Assembly (NCBI GenBank): GCA_020343515.1
Contig: CP070798.1
Span: forward strand, 230,258 to 269,984
DNA from: Thermoplasmatales archaeon
Lineage (GTDB): Archaea; Thermoplasmatota; E2; DHVEG-1
Direction: 5' to 3'
Length of the DNA stretch: 39,727 nt
Numbering within the stretch: position 1 is the first letter of the stretch; each line of letters begins with the position of its first letter. Below are positions 23,385 to 38,952 of this stretch, in pieces. The translations under genes were made by a program, and so were the position numbers. The notes below the pieces were generated by a model. The model was not told the origin of the DNA, made no database searches, and saw nothing but the letters and a program-made list of their open reading frames with translations.

Positions 23385-26306
23385 ATGAAAAAGAATGATA
23401 AAGTAATCGCAATAATTGGGGTTTTGATACTTGTTGTTGCATCAATTGGAATATATACATGGAAGGATCAGGAAACAACAGTGAGTGCCTCCAACATTGA
23501 TGATTTTTTTTATGTTTCTGGCAGCCTTTCAAATGCGCCAAATGCAGTAGTTGTTTCAGACTCAGACCCCTTCTACACCTTGATTGCTACGCCATTGACA
23601 GTTCATTACGATGAAGATGGAGATAAAGAAATTATTCCGCTCTACATTCAAAACTTCAGTAACCCGTCCCGAAGTGTTGAAAGAGCCATACAACAAATTG
23701 GAAAGAATGTGAATGAGTTTGTTGATCATACTATGTCTGCAGAAGAATGGTCCCTAGAAATTGCAAAAAAACATTGGGCTAAAAGCGACGCAGTTCTACT
23801 TATCGAAAACAATGAATCTGCGTATAACTTAGGGGTGATTGCAACACCATTAGCATCCTATCTGAGTATTCCTGTAATAATTACAGATGAATTAAACCCT
23901 GAGGTAAGGGAAGTATTAAGTAAACTTGGTGTGGAAAAAACCTTGGTATGCGGTAAAAACATAGAAGGCTATGGAAGTGTTTTAAAATTTGAAAACGTCG
24001 ACCAAATTGTTGATGCTACCATCAAGCTTCTAATGCAAAAGTTTGGCAACATTGATTACATCACATTAACAAATCCAATAGATGCCTGGCCACCTGAAGT
24101 TTTAGATAGCAAAGTACATTATTTTGGGCCTACCGTGGTACCATCAACTGCAAGCACCCAACTTATACAATATGCGATGGGTGGGCCTAAATTTATAGAA
24201 GGTTGGAGTTTTACTATTCCAAAGGATTACAAATATGCCCTCGTCAAATTCGAAGGAATAAATTTGGATTCGGATGACGTAGAGGAATTGGGAGATTCGG
24301 TATCTTTCCAAGCCGGTCCAAATCTTCCTGATCTTCCTGCTGGCCTCCAAGAATATGAATTATTCGTTGGGGGTACCGCAGCTGGTGGTGTACCCTTAAG
24401 AGACGAAAGTGGTAAGTTAACTACGGATAGACTGTGTGCCGAAACCGTCTTGTATGATCGAGGCGGTGTAGAATACAACATTAAAGCCCATGGTGAGTGG
24501 TTAGCAAAAAAAGAAGGGGAGATATCAGCAAAAGTCGTTATCGAGAAGCTGGAAGACCCTGTTTATCCTATGATGAAAGGACTTTCCTCGTTAGCACCCT
24601 ATTTGACCGCCTATCATAAAGGCATAGTGTTTGGTAAGCCAGAGTTTGCCTTCACTGCCGACGATGATGTGCTGACAAAGAGGGGAAAAACATGTCCTGG
24701 TTTCTACGTTCCCCGGAGAAATCCAATATTGACAGAAATATCTAATGAACATGTCTTTGACAAAATACATGATCCTTTGAACAACCTCCTAGCTAAACTT
24801 GCGAACATTGACATAACTATAGAACAAAATCTTGAGGGTTTGCGTGAATATTACAGCAAAAATCCTGTCTATATCGCCTTGGTTGGTGGTGCTACAGTTC
24901 TGCCTCAATACATATTTCAGAATTACGTAGAACCTGCCGACGTAGAAGAGACACATTACTACGTTGGTGGAGGGACACCAAGCGATGTAATTTATGGCAA
25001 TATAGATCCCGTTAAATATGATTGGGAAAATTTAGCAGGTGATATGTACACCCATCCTTATCCAATGCAGGAAAATCTCGTTGGAAGAATAACTGGTTGG
25101 GACACCCAAGACGCGAGCGCACTAATCGCTCGAACTGTATTTTACAATGAAATTATTGACCGGTTAGGTGACTGGAAGGATAATTTTGGTATTTTAATCG
25201 GAGCCGGCCAAGATTTCCAAAAACCACTTTTTAGATATTTGATCTTTGGAGATTTACTTGGGTTGACACCACGTGGTGAACCAATGAAATACCCAACTGG
25301 ATACGGTGTTATTAGTGGAAAACGAACCGAGGAAGAAGTAGCGAAACCTATGGAATTCAACTTATACCCAGCATACAACGAAAAAGCAATGAGACAAGGT
25401 TTCAGTGGAGATTCTATAAATCGATTAAAAAAGGTTACGCTTCTAAACAGGTTTTTCTTTCATAAACGCCAAGTGAATAAGCTGGTTGGTAAAGGTGCCG
25501 TTGAAGGTGGAGAAATAATGGAAAAGAGTAATTTTATATGGGCAAACGCTCATGGTAACCAGCATGGTTTTGGGATGGCAGGCGTAGATTTGACGGCAGC
25601 AGGTCTCGGCGGTCGAGTGGTTCATCGGGTGCTTAAGAAAATCTTACCTATCTATATGGGGGGATTTTTAGGGCCAGGATCCTCTTTAGGGGCCCTCGGT
25701 GATTATTACACGAGAGGAGTTGAGAATATGGAATTTGGACCCTCATTTATGTGGCTTGAAAGTTGTATCTGTGGAAAAATAGATGGTATGTACCCTCAGA
25801 TGAACGTTGGCCAGGCGCTCTTACATGCAGGGGTGACCTCGCTAATCGCATCACCAACTGGTTCTAACATTGCGGGGGGATATCTTGAGCCGAAAAACAG
25901 AATGTATGATACGCCATTCTCAGTATTACGGTCTCGTATAAATGCAAATAACGACGCCAAACAGGGCATTTATCCCGAACCGCATTTCGGCTATAAGATA
26001 TTTACAGATTTATGCGAAGATTTAAAGAAAAACAATGTCAGTATAGGAATGGCGTTCAGAAATGCCAAAAATAGATATTTACCGGAAGATGCAGATTGGG
26101 AGCTCTGGTGGTCACCACCATTAGTTATCACAGGCAATCCATCGCTCGATATAGAAATGAGAAATAACTACATTGAAAGGATGAAGAGTACTGTAGGTGG
26201 CGGGAAAGGACCAATGCTCGAAAATAAATATACCTCTTATCAAGAATATCTACTATTCGGTGATCCAGCGTTCAACCCATATGAACCAATCAATGAAGGC
26301 AGATAA
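23385..26306 (+). CDS. Large gingipain-like (C25) secreted peptidase homologue
   Basis: The 973-residue protein has an N-terminal membrane helix or signal (about 7-24). A domain similar to cell-wall-binding repeats follows (about 40-210, with NLGVIATPLASYLSIPVIITDELNPEV-type repeats and LVCGKNIEGYG). The C25-like catalytic region contains His723 in ANAHGNQHG and Cys794 in LESCICG, matching the His-Gly and Ser-Cys arrangement of gingipain-type Cys peptidases. C25 enzymes are exported and cut after basic residues, but the specificity here is unknown. No C-terminal anchor is visible, so the N-terminal helix may hold it to the membrane. The gene converges on the surface-protein region, making a processing role possible (inference). 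Confidence 0.7.
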   Translation: MKKNDKVIAIIGVLILVVASIGIYTWKDQETTVSASNIDDFFYVSGSLSNAPNAVVVSDSDPFYTLIATPLTVHYDEDGDKEIIPLYIQNFSNPSRSVERAIQQIGKNVNEFVDHTMSAEEWSLEIAKKHWAKSDAVLLIENNESAYNLGVIATPLASYLSIPVIITDELNPEVREVLSKLGVEKTLVCGKNIEGYGSVLKFENVDQIVDATIKLLMQKFGNIDYITLTNPIDAWPPEVLDSKVHYFGPTVVPSTASTQLIQYAMGGPKFIEGWSFTIPKDYKYALVKFEGINLDSDDVEELGDSVSFQAGPNLPDLPAGLQEYELFVGGTAAGGVPLRDESGKLTTDRLCAETVLYDRGGVEYNIKAHGEWLAKKEGEISAKVVIEKLEDPVYPMMKGLSSLAPYLTAYHKGIVFGKPEFAFTADDDVLTKRGKTCPGFYVPRRNPILTEISNEHVFDKIHDPLNNLLAKLANIDITIEQNLEGLREYYSKNPVYIALVGGATVLPQYIFQNYVEPADVEETHYYVGGGTPSDVIYGNIDPVKYDWENLAGDMYTHPYPMQENLVGRITGWDTQDASALIARTVFYNEIIDRLGDWKDNFGILIGAGQDFQKPLFRYLIFGDLLGLTPRGEPMKYPTGYGVISGKRTEEEVAKPMEFNLYPAYNEKAMRQGFSGDSINRLKKVTLLNRFFFHKRQVNKLVGKGAVEGGEIMEKSNFIWANAHGNQHGFGMAGVDLTAAGLGGRVVHRVLKKILPIYMGGFLGPGSSLGALGDYYTRGVENMEFGPSFMWLESCICGKIDGMYPQMNVGQALLHAGVTSLIASPTGSNIAGGYLEPKNRMYDTPFSVLRSRINANNDAKQGIYPEPHFGYKIFTDLCEDLKKNNVSIGMAFRNAKNRYLPEDADWELWWSPPLVITGNPSLDIEMRNNYIERMKSTVGGGKGPMLENKYTSYQEYLLFGDPAFNPYEPINEGR

Positions 26307-26353: not shown

Positions 26354-26950
26354 TCATTTTTTACTCATTTTCTTCTTATAAAATAGGATTCCTAGAAGTA
26401 ACAGAGTTATTGCCATAGCTGCTATAAAAATGTAATATATGGCATAATAATTTGAGTTGGAATTATTAAAGGAATCATTAATTGCTGCTTTTTGGGGGGT
26501 GTCTATATACACTCGAGTTGCATATTCATATTCAAAGATGTCACCGCCGCCATTATGTTCGTCCAGTTGAAAGGTAACCCATGCCTCCCAATGTTGATCC
26601 AGTAGTTCTTTGTTTTCAGGGATATCTAGATGGATATAAAACATTGCAGCACTTGCTGGTGATATTACTAGCCATTTTGGTTCTACATCAACCCAGGATA
26701 AATCTGGTATGAATGTTCTATTAGGTCTCAGATAGGATATAGGGTTTGGATGTTCGAGATACCATGTTACGTTAATATTGTAGTTGTTGTTGTTTGTTAT
26801 TGTTATATTTTTTGAAGTATTACCGTGTATGAACTCATTGTCCATCTTTATCTTTAGTTCTAGCGGGTCAAAAGTTATAGTTGCGTTGCCAAATGTAGAA
26901 AAAAATAGAGAGAGTAATAGTAGTATAGGCAAAGTAAGTGTTTTTTTCAT
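26354..26950 (-). CDS. Ig-like surface protein with C-terminal membrane anchor (paralogue A)
   Basis: From ATG 26950 the protein has 198 residues: a signal peptide (about 1-23), one Ig-like beta-sandwich (about 24-155), an Asn/Ser-rich linker, one membrane helix (about 170-190) and a KKKMSKK tail. It shares the elements IPDLSW, DIPENK and WE(A/T)WV with the gene at 29682-30323, so the two are paralogues. The fold order resembles the membrane-anchored DUF916-type proteins that accompany WxL surface proteins in Gram-positive bacteria, but this is only analogy. It follows the beta-helix gene by 25 bases and is probably its operon partner. GGAG is a weak SD nine bases before the ATG. Confidence 0.7.
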   Translation of the reverse strand: MKKTLTLPILLLLSLFFSTFGNATITFDPLELKIKMDNEFIHGNTSKNITITNNNNYNINVTWYLEHPNPISYLRPNRTFIPDLSWVDVEPKWLVISPASAAMFYIHLDIPENKELLDQHWEAWVTFQLDEHNGGGDIFEYEYATRVYIDTPQKAAINDSFNNSNSNYYAIYYIFIAAMAITLLLLGILFYKKKMSKK

Positions 26951-26975
26951 ATACCATGTCTCCACATTTCAGTTT

Positions 26976-29147
26976 TTATTCTTCTCTAGAGAGGAGTTCG
27001 TCTACCTGTTCTTCTATGTCGCTGATGTCTTTTAGTTTACTTGTTTTTTCCTCGGGGGTTGTTGTTTCCTTCTTCCCCTCAATTGTGGTGTATTCGATTT
27101 GATCTTCTAGTTGATGGAGTTGTTCCATGTAAACTTCTACATCTTGTTGTATATGTTGTAGTAGGTTCTTTGTTTGACTGATCATTTCTACTGTATCTTT
27201 ATCAATGACACGTGTTCTTGAAGGTTCCTTAATCGATGGAGGTTTAATAATTTCCTCACGTTTTTTAAATATCTTATATTTCCAATATTTAAATCTTGTA
27301 AAGTATAGGGTAATAATTAATATGATGAGCAGTATCGCTAGGGTTATAGGTATCCAGATTATAAGTGGTAATATTTCTTCTTCGTATGGGGACATGGATC
27401 CATCTGCTGTGTTGTATATGTAATCCCATGTGCCATCTCCGTTTTCATCGATGAAATAGTTTTCTTTGTGTTTTTCTGCTGCCGTCGTGATATCGCCTGT
27501 GGGTTCGTAGAAGATGTCGTAGACGCCATTTTGGGTTACATCTACGAGATAGTATGGCTTTCCAGTGATGTAAACTTTCTTTGCATCCGATCCATTCTTT
27601 GGATTTGATCCAAGACGTGTTTCAATTGTATCTCTGAGATTGTCGTCATCGTCGTCAACATCTCCAGTATATTTTCCAGATGGTGAATCCTCATCGGGTA
27701 TGTCGTCGCCATCTGTATCAAGTGGGTGCCTGCTTGGGTCTTTTGTATCTGTTTCATAGGATAGTTCCATCTCGTCATTATACCCATCGTTGTCATCATC
27801 GATGTCCACAGAATCAGGTGTACGATCGCGGTCTGTGTCCAATGGGTAGTTATCTAGGTCATATGGATCGGTACCATATTGTTGCTCCTCTTCGTCTGAC
27901 CATCCATCTCCATCCGTGTCTATGAACGTGGTGTCAATTAAGAACGTAACAGCAGCGTATCTGCTAGTTGTGTTGTCAGTGCCTATTGCCCTTACATAGA
28001 ATGTGTGAACACCATTTGTAAGGTTATATGGTGATGTCCAACCTGATGTGTCGCCGACATATGTTTCTGGTCTACTGTTTATTTTGACGTAGTATCCTTT
28101 TACGCCTTTGCTATACACCGACTGACTCCAGATGAATGAAGGTGTGTCATCCCATGTTGGAGTAACCTGTTCCACACCAGTAGGTAATGTTATTTCATCT
28201 GGAAGTATTATGGAGGTTAATGGGAATCTATCTATATTTCCCTCAGATATTGTATAAGGCGTGTCCCAAATTTCATCTCCATTTGTATCTACGCCTGTGT
28301 ATTGGTTCCAATAGTTGCCTTTAATACCGTTATCCCATGTGTTGTTTCCTTGAGCCTTTGCGTCTATATCGTTTTTCCAGAAGTTGTTAAGGTAAACGAG
28401 ATTGTTGTTTGAGTTTTGCCAGATGTACACACCTAAGTCATTAACATAAATATTGCATTTAGATACTAGATTGGCATATGAATTAATGCGAATGTCAATA
28501 GCAATTTCGTTGTTAAATATGTTACAGTTTAGTATCTTATTATCATGAGATCTTATTAGAGCTAAAACACCAACAGTAAATCCGTATATGTCACAATCCT
28601 TGATTGTATTGTTATGTCCTTGTAACTCGACGCCAGTGCCAGATGATTCAACTCCGATAATGTTACAATTGGATATAATGGCAAAGGAAGCTCTTATCCG
28701 AATGCCAATATTTTTCTTGGCAGCTTCTATAATGGAGTGAGAGATATTACACCAATCACTGTCTGGTTTAACGAATATCGCGTATTCTCCTGGATCTATC
28801 AATTTAAGGTTACGGATATCTACATGTGAACTTTCTAAAATGAAGCCATTATTGCCTCCAAAGTCGATTATAGTAGTAGTTTCTTTATCTCCTACTATCG
28901 TTACTTTTTTCCTTATCTCCAGATTGTTTTCTGTATAGACGCCTTCTTTTATTCTAATGATGTCGTTTGAGTTGGCGTTGTCGATGGCATCTTGAATGTT
29001 GATGTACTCGCCACTTCCATTGATATCAACTATTAAAATTTCTTGAGATGTAGGAGGCACGGATTGTATTGTGGATGAAAGAGTTATGAATAAGAATAAG
29101 AATGTTGCTAGGAAGGTAATTGCTTGGACTCCTAGTCCCCTGTTCAT
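26976..29147 (-). CDS. Beta-helix / Ca-repeat surface protein with cytoplasmic coiled coil
   Basis: The 723-residue protein has, in order: a signal peptide (about 8-28), a NosD-like right-handed beta helix (about 37-310, starting IVDINGSGEYINIQDAIDNA), a Fn3/Ig-like domain (about 325-405), Asp-rich thrombospondin-type-3-like repeats (about 407-530, DTDGDGWSDEEEQQYGTDP), a short domain to 585, a membrane helix (about 590-615) and a basic stop followed by about 105 cytoplasmic residues ending in a Glu-rich coiled coil. The Asp-rich repeats should bind Ca2+. A large ligand-type ectodomain linked to a cytoplasmic coil suggests either attachment of the cell surface to an internal structure or signalling (inference). 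The start overlaps the stop of the regulator gene (ATGA). Confidence 0.8.
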   Translation of the reverse strand: MNRGLGVQAITFLATFLFLFITLSSTIQSVPPTSQEILIVDINGSGEYINIQDAIDNANSNDIIRIKEGVYTENNLEIRKKVTIVGDKETTTIIDFGGNNGFILESSHVDIRNLKLIDPGEYAIFVKPDSDWCNISHSIIEAAKKNIGIRIRASFAIISNCNIIGVESSGTGVELQGHNNTIKDCDIYGFTVGVLALIRSHDNKILNCNIFNNEIAIDIRINSYANLVSKCNIYVNDLGVYIWQNSNNNLVYLNNFWKNDIDAKAQGNNTWDNGIKGNYWNQYTGVDTNGDEIWDTPYTISEGNIDRFPLTSIILPDEITLPTGVEQVTPTWDDTPSFIWSQSVYSKGVKGYYVKINSRPETYVGDTSGWTSPYNLTNGVHTFYVRAIGTDNTTSRYAAVTFLIDTTFIDTDGDGWSDEEEQQYGTDPYDLDNYPLDTDRDRTPDSVDIDDDNDGYNDEMELSYETDTKDPSRHPLDTDGDDIPDEDSPSGKYTGDVDDDDDNLRDTIETRLGSNPKNGSDAKKVYITGKPYYLVDVTQNGVYDIFYEPTGDITTAAEKHKENYFIDENGDGTWDYIYNTADGSMSPYEEEILPLIIWIPITLAILLIILIITLYFTRFKYWKYKIFKKREEIIKPPSIKEPSRTRVIDKDTVEMISQTKNLLQHIQQDVEVYMEQLHQLEDQIEYTTIEGKKETTTPEEKTSKLKDISDIEEQVDELLSREE

Positions 29148-29332
29148 TTCTTCCCCCCCTCCTTTTTCTTTTTTATTCCCATAGCCCTTAGGAGTCCTTT
29201 TTCGGTTAGGTAGATTAGGACTATGTTTTTGACCACTTCAGCCTCAGAGTTTCCTAGTTCACCTACTTGTTGTTTTATTATCTCCCGGATAATTGGGGGG
29301 AAGCCGACTGGAAACCTCTGGATTTTACCCAT
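29144..29332 (-). CDS. Ribbon-helix-helix-like small regulator
   Basis: The 62-residue protein has a predicted strand (KIQRFPVGFP, 3-12), helix 1 (PIIREIIKQQVGEL), a turn (GNSE) and helix 2 (AEVVKNIVLIYLTEKGL), followed by a Lys/Gly-rich tail. Size and strand-helix-helix order fit MetJ/Arc-type DNA-binding dimers. Such proteins bind tandem palindromic sites, and the promoter here carries four copies of CATATATG. The gene is first in the unit with the beta-helix and Ig-like surface proteins. With TATA centred 28 bases upstream of the ATG, the mRNA is expected to be leaderless. Autoregulation is inferred from site position, not shown. Confidence 0.7.
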   Translation of the reverse strand: MGKIQRFPVGFPPIIREIIKQQVGELGNSEAEVVKNIVLIYLTEKGLLRAMGIKKKKEGGKK

Positions 29333-29334
29333 GT

Positions 29335-29421
29335 GTGAGTCATATATGAATCACTTATTTAAATACTTTTTTACCATATATGATTCTTATTTTATTCATA
29401 TATGAATCATATATGACTCAC
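29335..29421. promoter_or_regulatory. Four-site phased operator array with central TATA box
   Basis: The palindromic core CATATATG occurs four times: 29341-29348, 29375-29382, 29397-29404 and 29408-29415. Centre distances are 34, 22 and 11 bases, close to multiples of one helical turn. The first copy lies in a 20-base near-perfect palindrome, GTGAGTCATATATGAATCAC (29335-29354), between the TATA box (TATTTAAATA, 29356-29365) and the start codon of the ribbon-helix-helix gene. The last two overlap as a back-to-back pair flanked by ATTC and GACTCAC. Sites on both sides of the TATA box would block TBP or polymerase, as expected for repression. Confidence 0.7.
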
Positions 29422-29681
29422 ATAAGGAGAAATATTTTAAAAAATATGGTAAAAAAGCCAACAGATTACAAAATTTGACTAAAATCACTACTATATTCTG
29501 CAATGCAGTGTATGAAAAAATATAGTTTGAAGGGGTATACATTTTTGAAAAGAAACATAGTGCAGTACAGGCATAAGATGTTATATTAATACAGAGCAAC
29601 TAAGAAGCTTTTGTTCACAGATTATATTTAAGGAGAAAAAGAAAGTTTTTAGGATTCGAGTTTTCTTATCTCAGAGTCACT
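29422..29681. other. Gap without a recognisable gene
   Basis: I see no gene here. The stretch is AT-rich, contains the small palindrome CTGCAATGCAG near 29496 and an AT-rich palindromic run around 29434-29449. It separates the operator array from the stop codon of the Ig-like gene at 29682. The open frames in it have no homologue-like features or ribosome site. Confidence 0.4.
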
Positions 29682-30323
29682 CTATTTCTTCTTTTTAATA
29701 TAGAAAATAGCAGGTCTATCTGCTTTGATATTCCTTTTCTTTTTAATATAGAAAAAAGTCGTAAATAATGCTATCAAGCATATTATAAATCCAAATGTGG
29801 GATATAGAATATATGGTGCTGGCAGTGTCCCAGATGTTATCGTTCTCTTTGGAGTATGAATAAAGAGTTTTACAGCGAGCTGAATTTGGAGCAATGTACC
29901 ACCCAAGATAGATCTCAACCTAGGTGTTACGACAACCCATGTCTCCCAGCTTTCATTACAATGTAACGTTTTTTTATTCTCGGGTATATCTACAAGGACT
30001 TCTATTTCATTATAAGAATGAGCAGGGGTATCTAACGTTTCAGGGAGAAGTTTAACCCATGATAAATCAGGTATCCTCGTGTAATTTTCTTCCATCCCAT
30101 AAGGGTGTATTACTTCTGCAGATGCCGTGATTTCCCGAGAAAAGGGATTAGTAATCTTGATTTTATAGTGAATTTCTTTTTCAGGGTAGTCCTCAATGGT
30201 AATATATAATTTCGCTGGGGATACCTGTATGCCACTTTTGACACGGGGAGTAGCTACTAGAAGAATGTTTCCTGCTACAAACAGAAAAAGGAAAAGTAGC
30301 AATATTAGCCTTCTCACATCCAT
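29682..30323 (-). CDS. Ig-like surface protein with C-terminal membrane anchor (paralogue B)
   Basis: The 213-residue protein has a signal peptide (about 5-25), an Ig-like domain starting IQVSPAKLYITIEDYPEKE (about 32-50) with IPDLSWVKLLPE and VLVDIPENKKTL, a Thr/Ser linker, a membrane helix (about 172-192) and a basic tail. The domain is paralogous to the gene at 26354-26950. The tail is odd: a 19-base sequence, TTCTTTTTAATATAGAAAA on the + strand (29689-29707 and 29737-29755), is repeated 48 bases apart, so the peptide FYIKKK occurs twice just before the stop. GGAGG abuts the ATG, so the GTG at 30317, two codons later, may be the real start. It appears to be a separate transcript with an AT-rich TTTTTAAAAT element near 30371. 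Confidence 0.65.
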   Translation of the reverse strand: MDVRRLILLLFLFLFVAGNILLVATPRVKSGIQVSPAKLYITIEDYPEKEIHYKIKITNPFSREITASAEVIHPYGMEENYTRIPDLSWVKLLPETLDTPAHSYNEIEVLVDIPENKKTLHCNESWETWVVVTPRLRSILGGTLLQIQLAVKLFIHTPKRTITSGTLPAPYILYPTFGFIICLIALFTTFFYIKKKRNIKADRPAIFYIKKKK

Positions 30324-30688
30324 CCTCCATAGTAAGAAACCGATTATCTTGAAAGGAGAAGTGTTATGCGTTTTTAAAATTTTCTAAAAGCATCCCTTAA
30401 AGGATTATTCTCTATTGTGAATGTACAGGCTTTTTAGATGGCCTGGGAATTATTTAAAAGAATAAAGGACTATCATATGGGTTTGCAGGAGTCTTTGATT
30501 CTCGTTGAAGAATCCATTATTATTTTCACATCAACATAATCAATAGTTTTTTGAATGTGTATCAGATCCTAAAACGATGTCTAGAATATTGGAGAGGCAA
30601 CAGTTGTTTTTTAAAGTTTGAAAAACTTGAAATATAAATTAAAGAAGGAGTGGCTTTCTTCTTTATAATCCATTGCTTATCATATTAC
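30324..30688. other. Intergenic region with small hairpins
   Basis: No convincing gene lies in these 365 bases. At the left is the likely promoter of the Ig-like gene (TTTTTAAAAT near 30371). At the right, beyond the stop of the gene at 30689, two hairpins follow each other: AAGTTT/AAACTT (30614-30628) and AAAGAAG/CTTCTTT (30641-30664). These may mark the 3' end of the neighbouring - strand transcript. A 20-codon + strand frame from the ATG at 30477 has no support. Confidence 0.4.
30641..30664 (-). terminator. Hairpin after the small surface protein gene
   Basis: AAAGAAG (30641-30647) pairs with CTTCTTT (30658-30664) across a ten-base loop, 25 bases past the stop codon at 30689. On the - strand it is followed by an AT-rich stretch. 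It is a plausible transcript end, but weak. Confidence 0.35.
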
Positions 30689-31201
30689 TTATGATAGTGC
30701 TCCTGTGATATTGATTCTGGTCTTCTGCCAACCAAAATCTGTGGAACCGCTCCCGAGTTCCAAATTGACACCAAACGTTACAGTACCACCACCACCGGCC
30801 AAGCTATTGACCCACGATGTATTAGTATTGGTTATCTGTTGAGCGTTGCTACCCGTAACATTTAGGCAATATTCATCTTGACTAGGGCTACCTGTATTAT
30901 TAAGGGTCATGTCACCGCTATCTGTAGTTGTATTCGCAAAGATGTATACATCAGCTGCTACAGTGCCATTGTTGTAAAGCGTATAAGTAGTATCAGTCGC
31001 TCCTTCCTGAGGCCAATTTTGCTCAGTTGAAAAGGTGACCGTGCTAAAATTTGCGGTTTCCGGCCATACATCTAAATCTATTGATCCTTGTGGGTCAAAA
31101 GTTACCGTAATCTTATCGTTTGTCGCAGCAAGAACTACAGGGGTGATAGCTGTGATGAACATAACTGAAACTAACAAAACAAATATTTTCTTAATTCTCA
31201 T
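30689..31201 (-). CDS. Small secreted beta-rich surface protein (possible filament subunit)
   Basis: From ATG 31201 the protein has 170 residues: a signal peptide (about 1-25, ending VVLAATND) followed by one strand-rich domain of about 145 residues starting KITVTFDPQGSIDLDVWPET, with many Thr, Asn and Gly, several N-glycosylation-type sites and no membrane anchor. The domain resembles the C-terminal 130 residues of the giant protein at 33325-38952 in its run of strands and its NNGT, AADVYIFAN-type and GGGG elements. Size and plan recall TasA/archaeal bundling-pilin-like secreted jelly-roll proteins, but this is a suggestion without a diagnostic motif. The leader carries GGATGGGATGGAAAC directly before ATG, similar to that of the PKD protein gene. 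Confidence 0.65.
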   Translation of the reverse strand: MRIKKIFVLLVSVMFITAITPVVLAATNDKITVTFDPQGSIDLDVWPETANFSTVTFSTEQNWPQEGATDTTYTLYNNGTVAADVYIFANTTTDSGDMTLNNTGSPSQDEYCLNVTGSNAQQITNTNTSWVNSLAGGGGTVTFGVNLELGSGSTDFGWQKTRINITGALS

Positions 31202-31293
31202 GTTTCCATCCCATCCAATTTGCATCCCATACTGCTGTCCTATCTTAATCTATGATTCAACCTAGAGTGCAAAATTAAAAAGAGGAACGGAGT

Positions 31294-31315
31294 TTTTAAA
31301 GCTTTCGCTTTAAAA
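31294..31315 (-). terminator. Perfect 9-bp hairpin with GAAA tetraloop on the - strand
   Basis: TTTTAAAGC (31294-31302) and GCTTTAAAA (31307-31315) form a perfect stem. Read on the - strand the loop is GAAA, a stable GNRA tetraloop closed by C-G. A T-rich tract (TTTTTAATTTT) follows about 15 bases later on that strand. It lies between the PKD gene and the small surface protein gene and could end the first transcript or act as a processing hairpin. Confidence 0.45.
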
Positions 31316-31433
31316 TCTTAAAACCTATATCAACTAGTCTGTTCAGGTCTTTGTAATGATTACTTTATATTTATTTTCGGACCTTTTTTGTAAATGCTTT
31401 TTCTTGTTTTAGGTTTAGGTTTTTTCTTAGGCG

Positions 31434-32633
31434 TTAAAGTTTTTTCTTTTGAAACCATAGTTTGGATACTTTTTTCTTTGTTGTCTGCAATTTTTTATAT
31501 TTGCGGAGTCGGTACAACATGATGATAGTAGTTAAAATAATGGCAAGTAGGTAAGGGATAATCGATAGCATGAACAGTCTTTCTTCATCTTCTACATCGG
31601 GTTCTTCTTCCTCCTCTCCCGTCTCATTAACGGTGATATAGGCTTTTGTTACGGAACTATTGGTAAGATTATCGTTATCTGCAACGGTAAGGATTATGGT
31701 ATAATTTCCTGCTTTTTCATATGCATGTATCGGGTTTTGTAAATATGATGTCTGATTATCGCCGAAATACCAGGTATAGTTAACTATTGTGCCATCAGGA
31801 TCATAGCTCCCAGTGCTATTAAACGTGATATTTTCATAGATCAACCCATGATAGGGACCATTGGCTTGTGCTACTGGCAGCTGGAGAGGTGGCTCTAATG
31901 GTATAATAGTGATATTATGGTACGCTATTGCCGTAGCATTTTCATTGTCCTTTACCTGTAATTTTATCGTATAATTACCAGGAGACAAAAAGATATGATC
32001 AATAATAACATCAGTCCCCCAATCCGTGTCAAATAACCCATCGTTGTTGAAATCCCATCGGTACCCTGTGATGTTACCATCAGGATCATAGCTCTCATTA
32101 GCATAGAAAATCAGGGTTTCATTAACATATCCCATAGATGGCCCTGTGATGTTAGCGACAGGTGGTAGATTATCTGGAGGGGGAGGCGGTGGAAGAGATA
32201 ATGCAGTTGTAAAATTCCATATCTCAGAGACGTTTTCATATTCTGAATCATTTGCTATTGCGTACCAGCGGTAGGTTGTATTTTCTTGTAAACCACTCCA
32301 TGTGGTTGAAGCCGTTGACCAATCTGCAGGTACGTTATAATCTACTCCTATGAGTGAGTCGTCTGATGCGTCATAGAAATATGCATCTACGGTGGAGCTG
32401 GTTTCGTCGTAGACATTTACGCTAAGTGTCACTGTGGTTTCAACATCTTTTGTTCCGTTTGAAGGATTGGGGTTTATAGGTTGGGATGGTGGTTTGTTTA
32501 AACTAGGGTCAAATGAGACTATAATCTGATCGCTGGCCAATGTTGTTGGTATGAAAAACAGAAGTAAGATTAAAATAATAAAGGAAATAATGGATACAAA
32601 AATTTTTCTTTTTTCCATTTTTTTTCCTTTCAT
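31434..32633 (-). CDS. PKD-domain surface protein with C-terminal membrane anchor
   Basis: From ATG 32633 the protein has 399 residues: a signal peptide (about 10-29), then DQIIVSFDPS, a Fn3-like domain (about 38-135, with TYRWYAIANDSE), a Pro-rich linker (LPPPPPPDN), two PKD domains (about 148-235 and 242-325, with SYDPDGNITGYRWDFNNDG and SYDPDGTIVNYTWYFGDNQ), an acidic hinge, one membrane helix (about 350-370) and a very basic cytoplasmic tail. PKD domains are stiff spacers in archaeal surface-layer and adhesive proteins. The alternative ATG at 32618 has AAAGG at seven bases. The 32633 start was preferred because its leader shares TTGGATGGAAAC with the small surface protein gene. Confidence 0.8.
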   Translation of the reverse strand: MKGKKMEKRKIFVSIISFIILILLLFFIPTTLASDQIIVSFDPSLNKPPSQPINPNPSNGTKDVETTVTLSVNVYDETSSTVDAYFYDASDDSLIGVDYNVPADWSTASTTWSGLQENTTYRWYAIANDSEYENVSEIWNFTTALSLPPPPPPDNLPPVANITGPSMGYVNETLIFYANESYDPDGNITGYRWDFNNDGLFDTDWGTDVIIDHIFLSPGNYTIKLQVKDNENATAIAYHNITIIPLEPPLQLPVAQANGPYHGLIYENITFNSTGSYDPDGTIVNYTWYFGDNQTSYLQNPIHAYEKAGNYTIILTVADNDNLTNSSVTKAYITVNETGEEEEEPDVEDEERLFMLSIIPYLLAIILTTIIMLYRLRKYKKLQTTKKKVSKLWFQKKKL

Positions 32634-32822
32634 TTCGTTTCCATCCAATTTTTGGAATTCTTTTGATTCCACGAATATATTGATAATTGATAGCACGATA
32701 CATTCTTTCACTAATTGTATTTAAAGTTACTCCGTTAAAATTGTAAAATTGGAGAATTTGCATTTTGATAAAATGGCAAATTGGATAATCATTAAACAAT
32801 CATAAATATTTATAATAAAATA

Positions 32823-32830
32823 TTTATATC
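32823..32830 (+). promoter_or_regulatory. TATA box of the HExxH membrane protein gene
   Basis: TTTATATC about 25-30 bases before the ATG at 32853, in a very AT-rich region, with no SD before the ATG. A leaderless transcript is expected. Confidence 0.5.
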
Positions 32831-32852
32831 AAAATATTATTTTATATATTAT

Positions 32853-33227
32853 ATGAAGATAAATAACAAGCAAAAAATAAGATTACACATAATACTCATA
32901 ATATTTTTACTTTCATCCGTCGTTATCATTGCGACTACCCCATTACATGAAGCTGCACACTGGATCATGTCAGATATTGATCCATACAGTAAACCTGTTG
33001 AAATCCATCTTTTTGATGGTAAATACTTCCAAAACGGACAACACATCCTCTCATCAGCCCTAGGATGCATAATAGTAAAAGAACGCTACCCTGGCTCTTT
33101 TAAGGATAGACCCCTATGGGTAGATCCAATTCAAGAACTAATATGTATCTCCATCCAAATCATACTAACATGCATAATTGTTTCAAAAACACTTTCATTG
33201 TTAATGAGCAAAAAACCAAATTTTTAG
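32853..33227 (+). CDS. Small membrane protein with HExxH motif
   Basis: The 124-residue protein has a first membrane helix (about 10-28) leading straight into LHEAAHWIMSD, with the zinc-metallopeptidase signature H32-E33-A34-A35-H36. A polar domain (about 40-92, with IHLFDGKYFQNGQHILSSALGC) follows, then a second membrane helix (about 94-115) and a short tail. HExxH at the membrane border recalls site-2-protease (M50) enzymes, but the protein is much smaller and the third zinc ligand is not obvious. It is the only + strand gene within the surface region, divergent from the PKD gene and convergent with the giant gene. Whether it is an active peptidase is open. Confidence 0.6.
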   Translation: MKINNKQKIRLHIILIIFLLSSVVIIATTPLHEAAHWIMSDIDPYSKPVEIHLFDGKYFQNGQHILSSALGCIIVKERYPGSFKDRPLWVDPIQELICISIQIILTCIIVSKTLSLLMSKKPNF

Positions 33228-33324
33228 TTTAATTATCATGATAACTTATTTGTTGCCATCGAGATATAATGGTATTTTGAGGTATCCCTCGTATTATTTT
33301 ATATTATATGTACGTGCCTTATTT

Positions 33325-36300
33325 TTATGATGCTACAGACTTAAAGGTGATAGTAAAGGACAATGGGTCATTTTTGGATGTTGAGGTAGCCATAATCAAG
33401 TTCAAATCAAAAGTCTGCCAGGAATCTATAGCTAGGTTTGTGACAAACGTATTAAATGTAGTGTTGATGTTCGTCCAACTGCCACCACCGCTCAGGTTAT
33501 ATTGAACGCTAAAGTTATCATGTCCGGGAGTTGAGTTGAGTTTCCATTCTGCCCCAGTTGTCGCATTAGTAGCGTTGCTTGCTTTGATTAGTATGCTCAG
33601 TGCAATGTTTCCTTCGTGCGTAAGGTTGAAATAAAAACCTGTTGTAACATTGGAGCTACCCATTAATACATCTCCTTGATTCCACTGTGATGGTGTAACA
33701 TTTATTGATGTGTTCTCAATCCAATGACATATGGCATCAGCAGTATTGGGGGCTGTTTCATTTGGTGAACCTGATTTATTTCCGATGCTGTAAAATTCAT
33801 AGTAGCCTGTACTATTTGGAAAGTCAAAGTCCCAAGACCATGGACTTGCTGTATCTGGATTTTGACTCGAGTTATCCCATTCCATCCATGCTTCTTCATT
33901 ACCCATACTTATGAATGTTGATTGATTATTTTGATTGTTATAACATGTGTTTATCCAACTGGCATTTCTTGATATATTTGAGATACGGACTTCATCGATA
34001 TACCCAGGGAAATCATAAGTAGACTGGGGAAAGGATATGTACAATACATCCGAGTTACCGGTTATACTACCAGTATAACTACCTGAATCGATGGACGTGC
34101 CATTTAAAAATAAGGTTGAATCACCGCTACTGCTATAATTAACTGCACAATGCTGCCATTCATTTAATTGAAGTACATTATTTACAGTATCAAAGACTTC
34201 GGTATTATCCAAATAAAATGTTAGGTCGTTAGTACCGCCACCACCGCCAAAATAATACGATGTTTGATAACCAAATAATCCTTTTTCAACTATCCTATTC
34301 CATTGGCCTGTGTTTTGTGTTGGGTAAACCCAGAATGAGATCGTCATTTCGTTCCTTAGATCCAAGCTCGAGTGGTGAGGTACCGAGATATAATCGCCGT
34401 TTCCATCGAACTGTTGACCACCATTGATTTGGCCTAGCTGACCGGTATCTGAGACATAATCATCACCATGATTATTTTTTGATGTTGAATCGTTATAGAG
34501 TCCGATGTTTCCCGTCCCTGATTCTTCCTCATCCAGATGCCAGACACCTACATAATTATGATCCCAAACACCTGTCTGATTCTGCTGGTCGCTGCATCTG
34601 CTGTTCCCATAGTAAATATAGATATCAGTATCAGATGATGAAATCACACTGGTTAAATTAACCCAAGCTATGAGATTACCAGTTCCGCTGGTATAATTTT
34701 CTATTTCATGATTCAGTTTTGTCCCAGTAGCATTAGTAAATACAATATCGTCTCCATCAGCTTGTGCTTTGTTTGAGAGATTAGTGCTTGTTATATTTAC
34801 TAATATTGGAAAGTTAGCTAGATCATCATCAACTTGACTGGAATTAACAGTCAATTTCATTCTTGATGTCCATGATTCATTCCACCATGTTGAATTATCA
34901 CTAGTGTATCGATACCAGAGGGTGACGTTATCTACAGGAGTAACATTTGAGGCAGTAATAGTTAAAGGAGACGTTAAAACCTCATAAGGAGTAATAGTAT
35001 CAACAGATGTATTCAAAACTTCAGTAGTAAAATAAAACCAGAAAGTAGCATTGTCAATACTATCATTTATTGCAACCCTCCACCAATAAGTAGTACCATA
35101 TGCATTTGCCTGATTAAAAGTCCAATTTAAAGTTGAGTTAGCAGAAACACTTGTATTGGTTTGCCTAAGCACCCATGACCCAGATGAATTCTCATACCAA
35201 AATACTGCCAAAGTATCACCATTACTATCATTAGCCCAGATCTGACACAATGATTGCAGGTTTACACCTGTGGACCCGTTAGCTGGAGAAATAACCTCTG
35301 CTGTTGGTATATTATTGGTTTTATTACTTGCACTAGCATTGGAATCTGACCATTGATGAAGTGTAGGATCATAAGTCCAATTAGTATAACTCCAAACCTG
35401 GTAATAGTAGGTTGTACCCTGAGATAGACTGGAGTGTTCATAGCTGGTTCCTGTGCTGTTATAGATTTCTGATCCCTGGTTTCGAGGCCAATTTGCTGTG
35501 GTGTTGTATTCTATGTAGGTAGTGTTTGCTCCTGTTCCAATGGTCCATGTGAGGTAGATTGTGTTGCTATTGTTTGATTGTGCTGTGAGGCTTGTTGGAG
35601 GTTGTGGTTTTGTAAGGAATGCGCTGTCACTTCCTGTATCTGAACCATATGTGTTGTTAGCGAATGCTCGATAGTGATAAAGCTGTCCAGGTGAAAGACT
35701 ACCTATTCCAGTAGAAAATTCATCATTTGTATTTTTAGTTTGATTTGATGTATTGGTTCCATAATTTGTTGTTGTTCCATATTCAAATCGGACTGTACAT
35801 GACTCTCCTCCTTCATCATAGAGATATCCTCGTAATGTTGCATTGTTTTCTTCGACACCAGTAGATATATTGGTGGTTACTTGCGGTGCTGCAGTTTGTA
35901 TCGTGGTGAAATGGAAGGTTGCACTGGTGTTAGTATCAAGTTCATCATTAACAGTGACATACCACCAATAGGTCTTCCCAGTATTGCTATAGTTAGTATT
36001 TGTCTGATGATACGTTCCATTGTTTACACTGGTATTAGTTCCGAAAACCTGCCAGGTACCACTACTGTTGCTATACCAGATAATAGTCATAGTCTCTCCA
36101 TGTAGATCATTTATGGTTATATTCATCTGTGGAGTAAGTGGTACATTAGTACTTCCATTGCTTGGGCCTTCATTGGTAATTATTGGTAGTATGTTGTATT
36201 TACATATAGCATCTGCATTATCTGGATTAGTTTCGTTTGGTGACCCTGATTTTCTCCCGATGCTGTAGAATTCATAATAACCAGTGCCATTTGGGAAGTT

Positions 36301-38952
36301 AAAAGTCCAATTCCATGGACTTACTATATCGGTTCCGTATAGATTCCATGTATCCTTTCCTGTATATGTTTCCTCACTATCGAAATTAAGGAAGGTTGTA
36401 AGATTATTCTGATTATTATACTCAGTATTAATCCAACTAATATTCCTACGAATAGAAGACATCCTAGCTTCCTGTATATAGCCATCAAAACAACGATTTT
36501 CAGCCCCATCACCAACATTACCTAAAGTGAAAAATTCATGAGGTGGACTACCATACAATGTACTACCGGAGACAGTAAGACCTGATCCCTGTAAAACTCC
36601 GTTCTTATAAATTCTAACTGTGTCGTCATCTGAACCATCCCAGGTTAAAACCACATAAATCCATTGGTTATTCTCCATCGAAGCTGGCTGATAACCATTT
36701 GTATTAGATGTATCTGTTCTAAACCTGCAACCCAATGTATTTGCACCTGTTCCAGTACATCTCATTAAGATTGTATTATCAGTTAGTCCGCCACCCCATG
36801 ATTTTCCCCAGAGTCGGTCATCGCCAGCGGCATTTCCGTAAATCCAGACTGAACCTGTTACTGCACTCCAAGCACTGCTTAGATCTTGTGATGAAATTCT
36901 GTCACCTGTAGCGCCGTCAACATTGAAATCTTGTGCATAGCCAAATTTTCCGTTTACTCTGTCTGGTGTTTCAGTCGCATCACCAAGTCCACCACTATCA
37001 TCATCTTTTCCTCCAGTACCGTTACAAGCATTGCTTGAACTGTCTTTATATTCATCAGTAGTCCCATTACCATCCTCTTGTAAATGCCATATGATTTCGT
37101 AATCTGAGTCCCATGTATTTGCGACATTTTCTTGACTGCTGCAGGCACTATTATTATAGTACATCCAAATTTTGGTATCAACACTGCTACTAAGGCTAGT
37201 TACATTTACCCATGCTGCTATTTGACCAGTTGAATTGTTGAATAGCGCTATTTCATGGTTGAGTTGTGTTGTATTATCTGAGTATTGTATAAACGCAATA
37301 TCATCACCGTTCTCCTGAGCATCACTCGCGAGATCAGAATCAGAAGACTCATAAATCAAAACAGGGAAGTTAATAAGATCACTAACAACCTGAGAAGAAT
37401 TAATTGTGATAAGTTTACGATTACCCCAATTAGCATTCCACCATGTACTACCTTCGAAATCAAAGTCATTACCATCAGTTGATAATAACAAATAACTTAT
37501 TTTACCAGAGGGAGATGATCGGCCTGTTTTTATATCCTCCCAACTTGGGGTCTTAAACCAAATACGAACAGTTATAGGACCATCTAATCTAATAGATCTG
37601 GAATAAGAAATACTATCCAAGCTTCTAATATACAATGGTAATCTATTGCGTAAAATATCAATACGTCTCTCAATTAAGGACTTACCTTTACCAGCAGCAA
37701 ACACTATTGGATTTTCTTCATTAAATGAGTTCGCCAACTGACTATAAGGTTTATTCTCACCAATAATCTCAAATCTCTCAACAGATAAATCACTAGAAAA
37801 CATAGGAGCAAAAATAGCATAAGAACTATTCAAGCCACTAATAGTCCTCTCAACAAAGAAACTAGTACCAGGAACAACATAAACTTTCTCATCAATCACT
37901 GGATCAATAATAGATACCTCAGAAATATTATCAGTAACATTTTCAACAGGATTACTTATAACAGACACTACAAGAACCTCTTCAGTAGACTCATTCATAT
38001 AGGACACATTCGCTAAAACAGTATAATCACCAGCAACATCAGGAACAAACTCATAATCAAAACTACCCTCTGACACGTTCGCAACATCAGATAAATTAAC
38101 ATCAGAACCAGCAATAAGAAGACTCGCAGATGTGTTTATCAACGAATTATTATACGAAACAACACCGCTGATCAACACAGATTCATTAATGACATAGACC
38201 AGCTTATCACTCTGCAAAGCAAGATTTAAACCAGTAGAAATAATTGTTACATTTTCCCCTGCAGATGTCCCATTTGTCCCTGTCTCTAAAGATTGATTAT
38301 CATCAGGGATTTCTTCAGGTAGGACACTTAATCTAACACCAGTAGAGTAAGACGTATTATTCATATCAAGTGCTACAATCGTAACAATATGTTCACCAGG
38401 AATAACATCATGAACAAACCAAACGCCCTGCCATAAATCCAACGGAGTAGAATTATCAACAAGCATTAAATCAATAACATCAACACCTGCCATATCGGCA
38501 GATACAGAAGTAACATTATACACATCAGGAATAGTAACATTCACAAACATAGTATCATTATTAAAGATGTTTTCAGGGCTAAGAGAAACAGAAACATCAG
38601 AACCAAAATCACCATACACAGGTGGTAATATATACGGTATCGCAGCCAATACTACAAATAAAGCCAATGCCACTGCTAGAATCTTCTTTATATGTAGCCT
38701 CTTGTTGGTTATGTTACGGACTTTTCGTCTTCCTCTGTATCTCCGACGTCTGTGAGTAGGATATTTCTTTCCAACTCTTTTAGTATATGAAGGAACCTTG
38801 TGTTTAATTAGAACCCTATCAACAAGATAATCAATATTATCAACACGATTAAAGGAGGATTTGTCAGAATAAATACGATTTGGAGATTGATAGCCATCAC
38901 TATCTATCTCCCCATGTATTGTTTCTATTTTCTGTATTTTTTCCTTTGCCAT
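33325..38952 (-). CDS. Giant modular surface protein with repeated DUF2341 and LamG-like modules
   Basis: The 1875-residue protein starts with an unusual cytoplasmic segment (1-90) containing the basic run RRRRYRGRRK (68-77), followed by a membrane helix (about 91-110). The outer part has Ig-like domains (about 115-400), then module 1: DUF2341 (about 504-600, WWNANWGNRKLITIN) and a LamG/concanavalin-like domain (about 640-830), ending with SPWNWTFNFPNGTGYYEFYS (near 875). Fn3-type repeats follow (about 920-1340). Module 2 repeats DUF2341 (about 1350), LamG (about 1480-1665) and the SPWSWDFDFPNSTGYYEFYS block. The C-terminal 130 residues resemble the small secreted protein. There is no C-terminal anchor. 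LamG suggests glycan binding. The zinc-ribbon gene ends 19 bases upstream. Confidence 0.85.
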   Translation of the reverse strand: MAKEKIQKIETIHGEIDSDGYQSPNRIYSDKSSFNRVDNIDYLVDRVLIKHKVPSYTKRVGKKYPTHRRRRYRGRRKVRNITNKRLHIKKILAVALALFVVLAAIPYILPPVYGDFGSDVSVSLSPENIFNNDTMFVNVTIPDVYNVTSVSADMAGVDVIDLMLVDNSTPLDLWQGVWFVHDVIPGEHIVTIVALDMNNTSYSTGVRLSVLPEEIPDDNQSLETGTNGTSAGENVTIISTGLNLALQSDKLVYVINESVLISGVVSYNNSLINTSASLLIAGSDVNLSDVANVSEGSFDYEFVPDVAGDYTVLANVSYMNESTEEVLVVSVISNPVENVTDNISEVSIIDPVIDEKVYVVPGTSFFVERTISGLNSSYAIFAPMFSSDLSVERFEIIGENKPYSQLANSFNEENPIVFAAGKGKSLIERRIDILRNRLPLYIRSLDSISYSRSIRLDGPITVRIWFKTPSWEDIKTGRSSPSGKISYLLLSTDGNDFDFEGSTWWNANWGNRKLITINSSQVVSDLINFPVLIYESSDSDLASDAQENGDDIAFIQYSDNTTQLNHEIALFNNSTGQIAAWVNVTSLSSSVDTKIWMYYNNSACSSQENVANTWDSDYEIIWHLQEDGNGTTDEYKDSSSNACNGTGGKDDDSGGLGDATETPDRVNGKFGYAQDFNVDGATGDRISSQDLSSAWSAVTGSVWIYGNAAGDDRLWGKSWGGGLTDNTILMRCTGTGANTLGCRFRTDTSNTNGYQPASMENNQWIYVVLTWDGSDDDTVRIYKNGVLQGSGLTVSGSTLYGSPPHEFFTLGNVGDGAENRCFDGYIQEARMSSIRRNISWINTEYNNQNNLTTFLNFDSEETYTGKDTWNLYGTDIVSPWNWTFNFPNGTGYYEFYSIGRKSGSPNETNPDNADAICKYNILPIITNEGPSNGSTNVPLTPQMNITINDLHGETMTIIWYSNSSGTWQVFGTNTSVNNGTYHQTNTNYSNTGKTYWWYVTVNDELDTNTSATFHFTTIQTAAPQVTTNISTGVEENNATLRGYLYDEGGESCTVRFEYGTTTNYGTNTSNQTKNTNDEFSTGIGSLSPGQLYHYRAFANNTYGSDTGSDSAFLTKPQPPTSLTAQSNNSNTIYLTWTIGTGANTTYIEYNTTANWPRNQGSEIYNSTGTSYEHSSLSQGTTYYYQVWSYTNWTYDPTLHQWSDSNASASNKTNNIPTAEVISPANGSTGVNLQSLCQIWANDSNGDTLAVFWYENSSGSWVLRQTNTSVSANSTLNWTFNQANAYGTTYWWRVAINDSIDNATFWFYFTTEVLNTSVDTITPYEVLTSPLTITASNVTPVDNVTLWYRYTSDNSTWWNESWTSRMKLTVNSSQVDDDLANFPILVNITSTNLSNKAQADGDDIVFTNATGTKLNHEIENYTSGTGNLIAWVNLTSVISSSDTDIYIYYGNSRCSDQQNQTGVWDHNYVGVWHLDEEESGTGNIGLYNDSTSKNNHGDDYVSDTGQLGQINGGQQFDGNGDYISVPHHSSLDLRNEMTISFWVYPTQNTGQWNRIVEKGLFGYQTSYYFGGGGGTNDLTFYLDNTEVFDTVNNVLQLNEWQHCAVNYSSSGDSTLFLNGTSIDSGSYTGSITGNSDVLYISFPQSTYDFPGYIDEVRISNISRNASWINTCYNNQNNQSTFISMGNEEAWMEWDNSSQNPDTASPWSWDFDFPNSTGYYEFYSIGNKSGSPNETAPNTADAICHWIENTSINVTPSQWNQGDVLMGSSNVTTGFYFNLTHEGNIALSILIKASNATNATTGAEWKLNSTPGHDNFSVQYNLSGGGSWTNINTTFNTFVTNLAIDSWQTFDLNLIMATSTSKNDPLSFTITFKSVAS

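Follow-up and report, generated by a model that had tools for sequence, protein, structure and literature searches.

Here, we report that the promoter of the gene for a putative regulator of 62 residues, located in the 39.7-kb stretch of DNA from an archaeon of the Thermoplasmatota that was analysed (the window), carries a tandem, helically phased array of palindromic boxes around its core elements. The conserved unit of the array is a 7-bp palindrome, TGANTCA, with a strict 11-bp period, and the regulator, its operator and the surface-protein gene behind them are inherited together. The exclusivity of the array, across 16 related genomes, to the gene of a small putative DNA-binding protein strongly suggests a self-contained and self-regulating switch of a known general type. 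As far as sequence can tell, the best reading is that of an autoregulatory ribbon-helix-helix (RHH) repressor with a private phased operator, i.e., a known kind of system.

The operator-like array and its repeat unit

The original prediction had described four copies of an 8-base palindrome, spaced 34, 22 and 11 bp apart, around the TATA box of the regulator gene, and an exact count agrees with it. The window contains exactly four copies of CATATATG, at 29341, 29375, 29397 and 29408 (span 29341-29415), and four copies within the 110 bp before the start codon were reached in none of 20,000 dinucleotide shuffles (mean 0.018). The taking of this 8-mer as the repeat had to be corrected, however. 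CATATATG is the junction TCA-TATA-TGA formed between two boxes with a TATA spacer, and we rejected it as the binding unit because several relatives have CATATGTG instead, with both flanking TGANTCA boxes intact. Additional distal boxes are invisible to a search with CATATATG.

The proximal pair of boxes sits between the TATA-like element TATTTAAATA (29356..29365, minus strand), which was recognised from the sequence, and the start codon. Proximal box 1 (TGAATCA, 29347..29353) is supported by both sequence and conservation, lies directly downstream of the TATA box and has its centre at -18; proximal box 2 (TGAGTCA, 29336..29342) has its centre at -7 from the start codon, and an equivalent box is present in nearly all orthologous promoters. 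In the orthologues, too, a TATA-like stretch lies ahead of the proximal boxes. The distal block is located upstream of the TATA box and was delineated from the sequence together with the promoter comparison: box 3 (TGATTCT, 29381..29387) and box 4 (TTATTCA, 29392..29398), each with one mismatch, are followed by box 5 (TGAATCA, 29403..29409) and box 6 (TGACTCA, 29414..29420), and the centre-to-centre distance along boxes 3 to 6 is exactly 11 bp.

A conserved TCTCCTTA (29423..29430, minus strand) borders the array on its distal side, immediately beyond box 6. The CTCCTT within it is found in 10 of the 16 orthologous promoters, compared with a shuffle mean of 0.36 and a shuffle maximum of 3. The complement of TCTCCTTA resembles an outward-facing Shine-Dalgarno sequence; inspection of the flanking DNA by eye showed no conserved reading frame that faces outward.

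The 16 orthologous promoters that we compared come from orthologues in 12 genome records and from relatives of the host genome. Together they hold 73 exact TGANTCA boxes, against 3.3 in shuffles, and 55 pairs of boxes exactly 11 bp apart, against 0.5 in shuffles, which bears out the helical phasing proposed earlier. The centre base of TGANTCA is free and the 4-bp spacers between adjacent exact boxes vary (TATA 16, TATG 7, CATA 6, CATG 1, AATT 1) around constant boxes, as expected for a dyad. The centres of the proximal pair are at -18/-7 or, in promoters with a short leader, at about -32/-21. More variable is the distal block, from about two boxes in one promoter (L028) to about eight in another (L024, degenerate boxes counted). 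The distance from the distal to the proximal boxes is 11n+1 or 11n+2 in 14 of the 16 promoters, with L043 and L025 as unclear cases and the block distance of L018 taken from its box list; the helical phase is thus kept despite the changing length of the array. At the genus level, the differences between arrays amount to exactly 11 and 22 bp, again with the phase kept.

The surface locus and its inheritance

The gene of the putative RHH regulator (29144..29332, minus strand; 62 aa by translation) is single-copy, i.e., it has one match in its own genome. Its stop overlaps by 4 bp (ATGA) with the start of the gene for a secreted right-handed beta-helix (NosD-like) surface protein of 723 aa (26976..29147, minus strand; Pfam Beta_helix/NosD). 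The coordinates thus agree with the earlier description of an array around the TATA box of a gene that overlaps a surface-protein gene, and the overlap is also present in the orthologous loci compared. After a gap of 10 bp follows the gene of a putative signal-peptide/membrane protein of 203 aa (26354..26965, minus strand), which is probably the last gene of the operon. The order of these three genes is kept in most orthologous loci.

The surroundings hold several further features. A conserved surface-gene cluster extends over 26354-38952 of the window, with a 1875-aa LamG/DUF2341 protein, a PKD protein, proteins of 178 and 213 aa, the regulator, the NosD-like protein and the 203-aa protein as its members. 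The 203- and 213-aa proteins resemble paralogues, and part of the 1875-aa protein is matched by relatives of the 178-aa protein. We also considered whether the 178-aa protein is TasA-like, for which PDB and NCBIfam searches gave no support. A convergent gene that adjoins the surface operon (23385-26306, plus strand) encodes 973 aa, including a peptidase C25 (gingipain-type) domain. In one relative (L027, 5183-6073), the NosD-like gene is shortened to 296 aa and unrelated genes come after it, with the regulator and the array intact. Tandem duplicates of the regulator gene were found in two genomes, with at least three copies in G013; the duplicated loci are L040 (1501-1867), L036 (129-504) and L025 (4804-5165), and the first copy of L025 is strongly diverged and perhaps decaying. 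A literature search on the lineage and the operon found nothing relevant.

We searched 45 genomes of the family and 74 others of the phylum (119 in all), with genome-wide counts derived from pattern searches; absences are soft, since many of the assemblies are incomplete. Among the matches listed, which cover the distant genomes less fully, exact TGANTCATATNTGANTC, the double box with a TATN spacer, was present in 16 of the 119 genomes. These are the same 16 that carry the gene, and the site was always beside it. The proposal of a self-contained regulator-operator pair, co-conserved in relatives, therefore holds in 16 of 16 gene-bearing genomes, and the case that would speak against it, unrelated genes preceded by the array where the regulator is missing, was seen in neither the family nor the phylum genomes among the matches listed. 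Exact TGANTCANNNNTGANTCA, the double box with any spacer, was found beside the gene in all 15 carriers among the 45 family genomes; its off-locus occurrences were three single matches with non-TATN spacers (G003, G010 and G032), and the reversed control gave matches in two genomes. Array and gene coincide in 15 of the 45 family genomes (Fisher p = 3e-12, without correction for relatedness). The surface gene has the same distribution across the family as the regulator (15 genomes), apart from a partial match in one further genome, and the 178-aa neighbour occurs in 13 genomes, all of them carriers. This co-occurrence indicates that the locus is an accessory block that brings its own regulator and operator. 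A search of the host genome for further arrays yielded four near matches off the locus, all of them single and three of them inside genes, and a genome-wide regulon was rejected for this reason.

The putative regulator and its distant homologues

An 18-row alignment of the regulator has 22 invariant residues. From structural modelling, the 62-aa protein is likely to adopt an RHH fold. The AF2 model built on a shallow alignment was poor (pLDDT 70), and the inclusion of distant homologues improved it to a pLDDT of 85.6, with an extended N-terminus and helices at residues 13-21 and 30-59. Please note that this model is a monomer, in which the ribbon cannot form. Its Foldseek matches are largely RHH proteins, i.e., CopG, ParD and PrpA, and the first model also matched Arc, PutA and NikR; the TM-scores to the target reach 0.71, with E-values of 1 or more, none of them significant. 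The RHH-like character that had been proposed for this protein is therefore suggested by the kind of fold that is matched and not by sequence profiles. Pfam gave no match, RHH profiles included, for any of the 18 members, NCBIfam gave no family match, RHH included, for the 62-aa protein of the window, and the curated RHH profiles thus remained unmatched. A distant homologue approached RHH_1 (E 0.11) and ParG (E 0.05), both below the cut-off, and a search of solved structures by sequence returned nothing meaningful.

Profile searches tie the regulator family in both directions (E ~1e-8) to a group of proteins with KRVQVTF-type strands. For all nine distant homologues examined (L124, L125, L126, L127, L128, L130, L131, L144 and L145), the next gene downstream encodes a DNA methyltransferase, often with an overlap. 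One of them is on a Methanothrix plasmid, one is in a virus of Methanobacteriales, and one has an MjaI-type endonuclease gene nearby; a search for relatives of the regulator in viral contigs gave none that was confirmed. TGANTCA is absent from the 80 bp before the gene in all nine. In four of the nine, the start codon is preceded by two copies of TGTGT at a distance of 11 bp (shuffle mean 0.017), two of these four being paralogues in one genome. These different boxes suggest a controller family whose box changes with the protein. At the window locus itself there is no adjacent methyltransferase or endonuclease gene, as a restriction-modification controller would have. We tentatively propose, at somewhat under an even chance, an unnamed family of archaeal RHH controllers upstream of methyltransferases, one branch of which would have been recruited for the control of a surface operon, where TGTGT would have given way to TGANTCA as the box. 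We infer the direction of this recruitment, from restriction-modification to the surface operon.

Proposed control and its alternatives

RHH dimers on tandem short palindromes are known from MetJ and from Arc/Mnt; the Arc dimers are placed about 11 bp apart on one face, and the boxes of MetJ are 8 bp apart, with a corepressor needed. In comparison, the 62-aa protein has no detected sequence similarity to these proteins and no effector domain. The classical C proteins of restriction-modification systems are helix-turn-helix proteins. Like C proteins, and like omega and PaaR of toxin-antitoxin systems (PMC3874152), the 62-aa protein would be a small autoregulator heading its operon, whereas the gene controlled here encodes a surface protein. 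AmrZ is an autoregulating RHH protein that binds as a dimer of dimers to two half sites 5 bp apart, has multiple targets and carries a C-terminal domain (PMC3325190); here, 4 bp separate the 7-bp boxes. SvtR, AvtR and F55 are small RHH regulators of archaeal viruses that repress their own promoter (PMC5569661). F55 binds tandem repeats that overlap the TSS and the BRE, with the 11-letter consensus ATAGATAGAGT, SvtR and AvtR are believed to form oligomers on the DNA from distal sites to the TATA box, and RHH proteins have been described that fill several operator sites in a cooperative manner and extend toward the BRE/TATA (PMC5569661). The 62-aa gene differs from these in that it is chromosomal, heads a surface operon, uses a TGANTCA box and has up to about eight distal boxes, and no other target of its product was seen in the genome.

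Given the RHH precedents that bind several sites (PMC5569661), negative autoregulation with one dimer per box is the simplest reading, and we consider it likely that the 62-aa protein is an RHH autoregulator of its own operon, which would repress cooperatively from the TGANTCA boxes at this sole surface locus. The operon under its control would comprise the regulator, the beta-helix protein and the 203-aa membrane protein. Each box would be bound by one RHH dimer through the two-stranded beta ribbon, and the 11-bp period, about one helical turn, would bring adjacent dimers into lateral contact. With both proximal boxes occupied, the gap between the TATA box and the transcription start, which is predicted near 29334, would be filled and TFB or RNA polymerase blocked, and the row of distal boxes may raise the local concentration and make the binding cooperative. 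The outcome would be tight negative autoregulation of one surface locus, the only target of the protein, possibly responsive to an inducing signal.

A role in activation is conceivable as well for the distal boxes, which lie upstream of the TATA box. Distal dimers would then recruit TBP/TFB and activate at low levels of the protein, and the filling of the proximal boxes at high levels would repress, which together give a concentration-dependent set point. The boxes flank the TATA box on both sides with the phase conserved, and AvtR, from an archaeal virus, does activate at low and repress at high concentration (PMC5569661). However, the best conserved pair overlaps the TATA-to-start region, i.e., the position for repression, and we hold such a dual action to be unlikely, though it is the strongest of the alternatives. 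It is improbable that another DNA-binding protein, e.g., a global regulator, occupies the boxes and that the 62-aa protein has a different role. Since genes and boxes are passed on as one unit, their co-occurrence does not count as independent proof in this matter; it fits binding by the 62-aa protein as well as another factor with the locus travelling as a block, and cannot separate the two. A global regulator, on the other hand, should have sites elsewhere, while the double box is confined to this promoter, and the distant homologues do without TGANTCA, some of them with their own 11-bp-spaced boxes.

In ParR/parC of plasmid R1, an RHH protein has its own promoter surrounded by blocks of 11-bp repeats, on which it acts. 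The window array recalls such a partition centromere or architectural site in its phased repeats flanking the core promoter and in the adjacent RHH-like gene, but no ParM/ParA-like gene, i.e., no motor ATPase, was seen among the neighbours, which encode secreted surface proteins. The locus, moreover, is accessory and lies on a chromosome, not on a plasmid, so that this explanation is very improbable. A chance or simple functionless repeat can be practically dismissed, as the array region is AT-rich but both the shuffles and the conservation across 16 genomes contradict it.

In the reading that we prefer, the autoregulatory RHH repressor, the locus offers a clean and testable regulator-operator pair in an archaeal lineage that was encountered here largely as metagenome assemblies. 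Its operator is available for comparison in 16 natural variants, and the locus points to a small protein family outside all Pfam and NCBIfam models. If the link to the methyltransferase controllers is true, a controller of the restriction-modification type can turn to the control of the cell surface, and the locus would be a case of a box that changes together with its protein.
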